A stretch of DNA of 61,361 bases from an uncultured Peptococcaceae bacterium (GTDB lineage: Bacteria > Bacillota > Peptococcia > Peptococcales > Peptococcaceae), in contig CATJSX010000044.1 in the NCBI GenBank assembly GCA_949743265.1, positions 1 through 61,361 of the forward strand, written 5' to 3'. Of this stretch, positions 4,245-53,768 are shown one piece after another. Positions within the stretch are counted from its first letter, which is position 1. Each line of letters starts with the position of its first letter. The notes beneath the pieces were generated by a model. That model was given only the letters and a program-made list of their open reading frames with translations. It ran no database searches and was not told the DNA's origin. Both the position numbers and the translations under genes were made by a program.

Positions 4245-4486
4245 AGCAAAGCAAAAATTCGCTAGAAAAGGACATGTCGTTTGTTTAAGCGCGCTCAGAG
4301 AGGGAGATGTTTGCTGAGAGTATCCTGCCCGCTAATCTTACGGTACCGCCTTAAAGAAGCTGCTGTGAACAGCGGCCGTTTGATCGCCGTTATCTGATCA
4401 GAGAGCGGGCGCTTAAAAAAGCGTCAACTTGGGTGGAAACACGGGAAAGTCATTCTCGTCCCAATAGGGGCGGGAATTTTTTTGTG
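4245..4486 (+). promoter_or_regulatory. T-box leader (threonine), with terminator
   Basis: The leader has the AGAGAGGGAGA stem I element near 4296-4308 and the conserved T-box sequence GGGTGGAAACACGGG near 4431-4445, which pairs with the free 3' end of uncharged tRNA. It ends in a terminator hairpin (CTCGTCCC/GGGGCGGG, about 4456-4477) with a T run. A candidate threonine specifier ACC lies at 4345-4347. Uncharged tRNA-Thr should favour the antiterminator and raise thrS expression. The specifier assignment was made by eye. Confidence 0.88.
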
Positions 4487-4516
4487 TTATTTTTATTAAA
4501 GAAAGGATGATTTATC

Positions 4517-51469: not shown

Positions 51470-53005
51470 CTATTTCGCATAATCCACCGCTCTAGTTTCC
51501 CGAACGACAACAACTTTAATCTGTCCCGGATATTCCAATTCTTTCTCAATGCGCTTGACAATATCACGACTCATTTTCACTGAAGCAGCATCATCAATTT
51601 TGTCTGGTTTGACAATAATCCTGATCTCTCTGCCGGCTTGAATAGCGAAAGATTTTTCGACGCCTTCAAATTCGTTGGCGATTTCTTCCAGTTTCGTTAA
51701 ACGTTTTAAATAAGATTCCAGTGTTTCTCTTCTAGCGCCTGGTCTAGCGGCTGATACGGCATCGGCAGCGGCAACCAAAACGGCTTCAATAGTAAGCGGT
51801 TCCACATCACCATGATGCGCTTCTATAGCATTGACAACATCTTTAGATTCACGATAACGTTTTGCCAGTTCAGCGCCAATCGTAACATGAGGACCTTCTA
51901 CTTCATGATCTACTGCTTTACCCAAATCATGCAATAAGCCGGCGCGTTTGGCTAACTGAACGTCGACACCCAATTCAGCAGCCATCATGCCTGCTAAATG
52001 AGCAACTTCAACAGCGTGTTTTAAAACGTTTTGTCCATAACTGGTGCGATATTTTAAACGTCCCAATAACTTAATCAATTCTGGATGCAAACCGTGTACA
52101 CCAGTATCAAAAGTCGCCTGTTCGCCTTCTTCTCGAATTTTGATTTCAATCTCTTTCTGTGCTTTTTCAACCATTTCTTCGATTCTCGCCGGATGAATAC
52201 GACCGTCAATGATCAATTTTTCTAACGCTACGCGGGCAACTTCTCTCCTAATGGGATCAAAACCGGATAGAATAACTGCTTCCGGCGTATCGTCAATGAT
52301 CAAATCAATACCCGTAAGGGTTTCCAGCGTACGGATATTACGCCCTTCGCGTCCAATGATGCGCCCTTTCATTTCATCATTAGGCAGCGCAACGACAGAA
52401 ACCGTCGTTTCTGCTACATGATCAGCGGCACAACGTTGAATGGCCAACGAAATGATTTCTCTAGCTCGCTTATCGGCTTGTTCTTTTGCAGACGCTTCAA
52501 TTTCTTTAATCATCATGGCGGTTTCATGCTTGATTTCTTCTTCAACACGACCTAAAAGCAACTCTCTAGCTTCGTCGGAAGTCATATTAGCGAGTCCTTC
52601 CAGTTCGGCCAGTTGTTTATGATAAAGTTCATTGATGTCGTTTTTAATAGTTTCTATTTCCTGTTCGTTCTTTTGCAGATGTTCTTCTTTACGTTCCAAA
52701 GCTTCCGATTTGCGCTCTAAAGATTCTTCCTTTTGTACTAAGCGTTTTTCTGTCTTTTGCAACTCACTGCGTTGCTCTTTGGCTTCTTTTTCCGCTTCGG
52801 TACGAATTTTATGAGCTTCGTCTTTGGCTTCCAGAATCGCTTCTTTTTTGATGGCTTCCGTATTTTTAGTTGCCGTCTCGATGATCTTTTGCGCCTCCGC
52901 CTCGGCTGATTGGATCTTTGATTCGGCAATAGATTTTCTTAATAAATAACCGGCTAAAATTCCCACGGCTAAAGCAATAATTCCTATTATAATTTTCTCC
53001 AGCAT
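51470..53005 (-). CDS. rny: Ribonuclease Y
   Basis: Membrane-bound endoribonuclease that starts mRNA decay in Bacillota. Residues 3-22 are the membrane anchor, a long charged coiled coil runs to about 180, the KH domain holds [17 protein letters not shown], and the HD domain holds [10 protein letters not shown]. 511 residues is standard. GAAAGGAGG precedes the ATG. Between it and recX lies a transcribed structured region with its own promoter and terminator (53092-53307), which may attenuate rny transcription. Confidence 0.97.
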
Positions 53006-53091
53006 AATCGCCTCCTTTCTTCTGTAAAATAAATGCTAAATTACTCAAACGCTACTCAAAAATCAATCAACGGGGGTCTTTTTCTGTCCAC

Positions 53092-53272
53092 AAAAAAAGC
53101 AAACCGAGAATTTCGGTTTGCTGAAATCGACTATATATAAATACACCATTATGGATGATGACCAAAAACCTTTTCTGCTGCGGCTAGTCTGCACCAATCG
53201 TCATTCACTTATCCAACATTTTATATATAGATTCTGTCACGAACAGAAATAATCTCATTAAACAATTTCCCC
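53092..53272 (-). ncRNA. Candidate structured leader or small RNA upstream of rny
   Basis: Read on the minus strand, about 180 nt run from a strong promoter to a rho-independent terminator. The body folds as an 11-bp stem (53220-53230 with 53131-53141), then GGAT/ATCC and ATGAC/GTCAT helices, enclosing a 37-nt loop. The terminator (AGCAAACCGA / TCGGTTTGCT plus T7, 53092-53122) is 87 nt before the rny start, with no clear promoter between. This matches the layout of a riboswitch or attenuator; a free-standing sRNA or a divergent 6S RNA are alternatives. Confidence 0.55.
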
Positions 53273-53278
53273 TTTATC

Positions 53279-53307
53279 ATTGTATAAATAAAAAATCAAA
53301 CTGTCAA
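53279..53307 (-). promoter_or_regulatory. Promoter of the rny leader/small RNA
   Basis: On the minus strand, TTGACA (53302-53307), 17 bp, TACAAT (53279-53284), in the gap after recX. Confidence 0.8.
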
Positions 53308-53330
53308 GTGGATTGCATGAACTCTTTAAA

Positions 53331-53768
53331 TTATTGATTAGTTTTATCGACTACCGCTTCGATCAAATCATAATCAAATCCCTTATAGGCTAAATGCCGT
53401 TTAATTTTCTCATAAGGTAAATTTTGACTGGCTTTTTTATTCGCTAATTGTTGTGCCAAGGCCAATTCAGTTTCGTATGGATAAAACTGCATTAAAGCTT
53501 CATCAATAATGGCACCATCAATACCTTTCTCTTTCAATTCATTCTTAATCTTGTAACGACCAGTAGGTTTTAAGTTGATGCGGCTATTGATCCACGCCTC
53601 GCAAAATTTCAGTTCGTCTAAATAATGATACTGCTGCAAATAAGCAATCACTTTGTCGATAATATCTCGCTCATACTGTTTTTTTTGCAAGTATTGTCTC
53701 ATTTCCCGTTCGCTGCGCGGTCGAATCAGCAAATATTTCAAGGCTTGTTGTTTCGCTTTTTCCAACAT
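53331..53768 (-). CDS. recX: Regulatory protein RecX
   Basis: Binds RecA filaments and limits their extension. Three-helix RecX repeats are visible: ALKYLLIRPRSEREMRQYLQ, then FCEAWINSRINLKPTGRYKI and ENLPYEKIKRHLAYKGFDYDLI-type sequence. 145 residues is usual. Its ATG overlaps the recA stop by one base (TAATG), so the two are translationally coupled. Confidence 0.92.
   Translation of the reverse strand: MLEKAKQQALKYLLIRPRSEREMRQYLQKKQYERDIIDKVIAYLQQYHYLDELKFCEAWINSRINLKPTGRYKIKNELKEKGIDGAIIDEALMQFYPYETELALAQQLANKKASQNLPYEKIKRHLAYKGFDYDLIEAVVDKTNQ

Follow-up and report, generated by a model that had tools for sequence, protein, structure and literature searches.

A probable transcription attenuator in the leader of the RNase Y gene rny in Peptococcaceae and related Bacillota

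RNase Y starts much mRNA decay in many Bacillota, and in the DNA analysed here its gene, rny, is preceded by an element that is probably a cis-acting transcription attenuator of this gene. The DNA is a 61,361-nt contig of an uncultured Peptococcaceae bacterium, in the following referred to as the window. The element is best read as a new attenuator, outside all Rfam families, and thus as a type of RNA that Rfam does not contain. A terminator switch of this kind was found at rny in every complete case of the window's class and in several other lineages. Because the same layout stands before rny in every class relative tested, rny output is probably controlled by premature termination, and the amount of the decay machinery in these bacteria is therefore probably set at transcription elongation. 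An initial annotation of the window had proposed either a leader that could terminate transcription prematurely or an independent small RNA (sRNA). The first part is strongly supported by the comparative data described below, and the second is disfavoured.

Architecture of the leader and search for known families

All parts of the element lie on the minus strand, where promoter, leader and terminator lie in the gap between recX (53331-53768) and rny (51470-53005). Profile matches identified the rny product as RNase Y (TIGR03319, 795.6 bits) and the neighbouring genes as those for RecX and RecA. The leader promoter (53307-53279) consists of the -35 hexamer TTGACA (53307-53302), a 17-nt spacer and the -10 hexamer TACAAT (53284-53279). 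With 11/12 consensus matches it is the best in the region, and in nearly all relatives the promoter is equally strong, mostly 11/12 and with a 17-nt spacer. The folded leader spans about 53273-53123, i.e. about 150 nt, and the predicted RNA including the terminator has about 180 nt. Both the start site and the termination are predictions from sequence.

Several helices could be identified within the leader. The closing helix P1 pairs UGAGAUU (53257-53251) with GAUUUCA (53128-53122), the latter strand adjoining the terminator. It is followed by the P2 hairpin (53248-53232), in which UUCUG pairs with CAGAA. The long-range AU helix P3, found both in the fold and in the family comparison, joins CUAUAUAUAAA (53230-53220) to UUUAUAUAUAG (53141-53131); these 11 pairs are unique within the 3.04 Mb genome. 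Additionally, a fold of the transcript truncated right after the terminator 5' arm places a candidate antiterminator 5' strand, P1a (GUUU, 53263-53260), opposite 53119-53116 within that arm. The intrinsic terminator (53122-53091) has a stem of 10 pairs, AGCAAACCGA-AATTC-TCGGTTTGCT at 53122-53098, and a run of seven T (53097-53091); its pairs covary within the family, where it is conserved. The promoter, the 11-bp long-range stem and the terminator with its T7 were thus present as first annotated.

The Shine-Dalgarno sequence of rny, AAGGAGG (53017-53011), is read 81-87 nt beyond the terminator stem. Between terminator and gene, the sole promoter-like match (9/12, 53028-53001) cannot drive rny, because its -10 hexamer sits on the start codon. 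This bears out the earlier remark that no good promoter follows the terminator, and since there is no later promoter, rny would depend on read-through.

Searches against Rfam 15 at gathering scores gave no match at the window element, nor in 18 related loci. A relaxed search of the element returned chance-level matches only, the best being a Drosophila snoRNA model (E 0.2). As a positive control for this search, the relaxed settings recovered a T-box in the same window (4253-4466, plus strand, 76.3 bits, E 5.9e-17; gathering score 93). This T-box and its terminator stand immediately 5' of a gene at 4516 for a threonyl-tRNA synthetase-like protein of 635 aa. Riboswitches, T-boxes, r-protein leaders and sRNAs all being without an Rfam match at the element, identity with a T-box or a known riboswitch was rejected. 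The initial annotation had named 6S RNA in particular as a family to be searched for. The rny leader is similar to 6S RNA (RF00013) in its length, its own promoter and terminator and its long helix. It differs in that the 6S covariance model finds nothing in 53006-53330 up to E 10, and the 6S RNA of this genome is found at another locus, on another contig (G000:C176:34810-34992, 72.9 bits); identity with 6S was rejected on these grounds. The 6S scores in the window's family are below those in most of the class.

In the open-licence literature searched for rny/ymdA attenuation, antiterminators or premature terminators, no terminator leader of rny is described, and rny is absent from the main text of a genome-wide attenuator survey (PMC2965389). 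The statement that no described element matches consequently holds for Rfam 15 and for the papers searched.

Conservation in the family and breadth of the layout

The rny upstream regions of the family repeat the promoter, P1, P2, P3 and a terminator with AGCAAAYCG. P1 reads UGAAAUUGC/GCAAUUUCA in relatives and is conserved, with mild covariation, across the family. In the case of P2, relatives carry ACCUG and CAGGU, and each of the five counted pairs (5/5) has a sequence in which both partners are changed. Pairs were counted in a sequence-only alignment of nine homologous family leaders; the MAFFT alignments A1 and A3 were left out of pair counts, as their P1 strands are out of register in several rows. 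In this set, 94.5% of the pair cells were paired; a control with slid registers, which preserves relatedness yet favours a structure read from those same sequences, gave 28-45%. Nine pairs showed changes on both sides, as compared to 2.7 in shuffles (0/500), a significance that is overstated because the family rows are related. Unaided, RNAalifold proposed the same P1, P2, P3 and terminator for the family. The check on covariation that had been suggested for homologous leaders thus found both double-changed pairs and conservation, and judged by this conservation, the window element is more than chance. A DNA search with the whole element reached relatives through the terminator only; the remainder became clear from the aligned rny upstream regions.

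The stability of the fold was also compared to shuffles. For the whole element, the predicted fold has -43.6 kcal/mol (z -2.09) and 7/200 shuffles are equally good, and the window leader minus its terminator is no more stable than shuffles (p 0.67). As a set, leaders are more stable than shuffles, with a mean z of -2.1.

To describe how far the arrangement extends, a detector for the order strong promoter, terminator and gene was used. In the window's class, every complete region upstream of rny was positive (37/37), as compared to 0/37 antisense regions and 0/370 shuffles. Among other Bacillota, 36/89 rny regions were positive. When genes of the same loci were compared, the layout preceded 44 of the 102 rny genes and 6 of the 373 others, one of these six being a T-box. 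No promoter of at least 9/12 follows the terminator in 76 of the 77 positive loci. The terminator is absent in many Bacillota, namely in most Bacillales and Lachnospiraceae-like loci.

The leader sequences diverge greatly between lineages, and the inner domain differs while the layout stays constant. A covariance model, R1, was built from a more homogeneous subset (alignment A4) and represents a leader type from other families of the class. It has one match per genome in 16/46 class genomes, each directly upstream of rny, and a phylum sample of 299 genomes gave no match outside the class. Matches to leaders outside the training set had E values of 6e-6 to 4e-11, with one more at 2.5e-4. In this second leader type, for which helices 1 and 2 alone of the pair table serve as evidence because the terminator helix (helix 3, 47% paired) is out of register there, P1 has four double-changed pairs, with the exchanges UA/CG/UG, GC/AU/GU and CG/UA/UG. 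Separately, a terminator core ACCGAG...CTCGGT recurs in otherwise unrelated leaders. In four loci (L169, L175, L176 and L039) the rny leader has 36-61 nt and contains little beyond promoter and terminator, as if without a sensor domain.

Pairing of the 5' region with the terminator arm and alternative readings

For the antiterminator, leaders were folded as transcripts ending with the terminator 5' arm, and the mean probability that this arm pairs with the first 55 nt was compared to dinucleotide shuffles. In 62 leaders it was 0.55 as compared to 0.22 in shuffles, with a Wilcoxon p of 5e-11 that is overstated, like the other p values on these sets, since relatives are not independent. For the window the values were 0.55 and 0.14, with 0/30 shuffles reaching the observed value. 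Completion of the terminator flips the predicted fold in many leaders, the window among them, and in some others (L139, L132, L129) the antiterminator form is still the predicted minimum afterwards. Because shuffling destroys P1 too, a second test was added in which 3' segments were exchanged among lineages. Leaders paired better with their own segment than with a foreign one (p 6e-11), and the effect is weaker for the arm alone (p 0.006); the window itself takes middle ranks (0.30 and 0.38). Its antiterminator overlap amounts to four pairs behind an internal loop. Altogether, it is firm that P1 adjoins the terminator. Across the leader set, an overlap of P1 with the terminator arm is likely according to these folds, since most leaders have a 5' region that pairs next to the arm and into it; for the window taken alone, the predicted overlap carries modest confidence. 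Thus, as in known attenuators, an intrinsic terminator lies between promoter and gene, and an alternative antiterminator pairing is predicted across the set.

These pairings also bear on a first alternative, in which the terminator would be passive: it would end recA-recX transcription and, by constitutive partial read-through, give a fixed low rny level without regulation. Just about 24 nt separate the end of recX from the -35 hexamer that follows it, so the terminator would also end the recX mRNA. The nearly bare terminators of L169, L175 and L176 agree with such a role, and in lineages with leaders of 36-61 nt a fixed read-through fraction could suffice. A bare terminator would however not need the leader helices, nor the pairing of the 5' end with the terminator region, which are conserved and covarying. 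Furthermore, the family leader is kept at rny where the upstream gene is not recX (L112, L117), for which a terminator serving recX only was rejected. We consider a passive terminator unlikely.

A metabolite riboswitch, in which a small molecule would stabilise the P1 domain and so set termination, resembles the attenuator reading in its layout. The closed multi-helix domain is aptamer-like, lies beside a terminator with which its pairing is predicted to be mutually exclusive, and is conserved in structure within the family. Known aptamers, however, hold near-invariant pocket bases across much larger distances. In four family lineages, admittedly a small sample, 8/49 unpaired positions were conserved, as compared to 29/58 paired ones. 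With so few unpaired positions conserved and an inner domain that changes from lineage to lineage under a constant layout, a riboswitch becomes less likely, and no Rfam riboswitch matches; altogether we regard this reading as quite improbable. Established terminator/antiterminator leaders such as the T-box (RF00230) share the order of promoter, closed domain, arm-overlapping antiterminator and gene. Unlike T-box and riboswitch leaders, the rny leader has no Rfam match, no conserved pocket or specifier was found in it, and the gene that it would control encodes an RNase.

A trans-acting sRNA that lies upstream of rny by chance would account for the strong promoter, the terminator and the discrete RNA, about 180 nt long, that is predicted from them. 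Since the element is single-copy and always found at rny, whatever the upstream gene, this part of the initial annotation is disfavoured. Against it speak also the missing alternative promoter for rny past the terminator, the terminator-to-start spacing of 24-211 nt within the class, and the lack of a match to 6S or any other Rfam family, so that we judge an independent sRNA very unlikely, although the terminated leader could have a second role. Most improbable is a ribosome-mediated attenuation by a leader peptide: the window has an ORF of 17 codons (53258-53205, ATG at 53258, MRLFLFVTESIYKMLDK, with AAGGGG upstream) and the P1 strand encodes M-K/R-L in some relatives, but start codon, length and frame vary, 42 of the 69 long leaders lack any ORF of at least 8 codons with a Shine-Dalgarno sequence, and a leader-peptide attenuator was rejected because a translated leader ORF is not conserved.

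Proposed mechanism and its possible input

Under the cis-acting attenuator that we favour, the strong promoter would start a leader RNA of about 180 nt, and the nascent leader would fold into a closed domain with the helices P1, P2 and P3. The outermost P1/P1a would join the 5' end of the RNA to sequence that borders the terminator 5' arm and extends into it. With P1/P1a intact, RNA polymerase would proceed into rny. With P1/P1a open, the terminator would form and a short RNA would be released.

We infer that this termination is regulated and responds to some input. By analogy, the most likely input may be RNase Y itself or the RNA-decay load, an assignment that we make tentatively. For example, RNase Y could cut or bind the AU-rich leader, whereby the antiterminator 5' strand would be lost. 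An effect of this kind would mirror, at the level of transcription, the feedback in B. subtilis, where RNase Y represses its own synthesis (PMC10303841): it cleaves its transcript near the start of the coding region as well as in the 5' UTR, there mostly in the first 50 nt. An autogenous input is favoured because of this feedback, and the corresponding 5' region of our leaders holds the antiterminator 5' strand, which makes a similar effect there conceivable.

The B. subtilis rny 5' UTR (PMC10303841) is likewise an AU-rich, partly structured leader of the same gene (164 nt), through which expression is set. It differs in that control works through RNase Y cleavage of the rny mRNA, which alters mRNA stability, with no terminator described in the sections considered. 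The Bacillales rny loci examined are mostly without a terminator, unlike those of the window's class. In E. coli, the rne 5' UTR is a structured leader acting in cis for RNase E, the main decay endonuclease (summarised in PMC10303841). Control of rne acts on mRNA stability via hairpin binding, whereas the signal in the rny leader is an intrinsic terminator. The known RNase Y feedback is mRNA cleavage in B. subtilis, and no control of rny by a terminator is described in the papers searched.

A more far-reaching and rather doubtful possibility is that the leader acts as a homeostat of RNA decay at the level of transcription, in which free RNase Y or decay products would act on the nascent leader, remove or block the antiterminator 5' strand and so trigger termination at rny. 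This same speculative reading would cover the whole Bacillota class and several further lineages, with a sensor that diverges while P1 and terminator coevolve.

Uninterrupted A-U helices are enriched in the 62 rny leaders, the mean longest run being 5.7 as compared to 4.3 in shuffles, with 10 in the window. This enrichment is compatible with several readings, and no evidence for RNase Y binding is taken from it.

The leader offers a defined RNA for asking how cells gauge their RNA-decay capacity, and cultured relatives are available in Desulforamulus aeronauticus, Desulfoscipio geothermicus, Acidaminococcus fermentans and Syntrophomonas zehnderi. In Desulforamulus, Desulfoscipio and Desulfosporosinus (L042, L043, L044) the leaders have another inner structure, and again a 5'-end helix lies beside the terminator.
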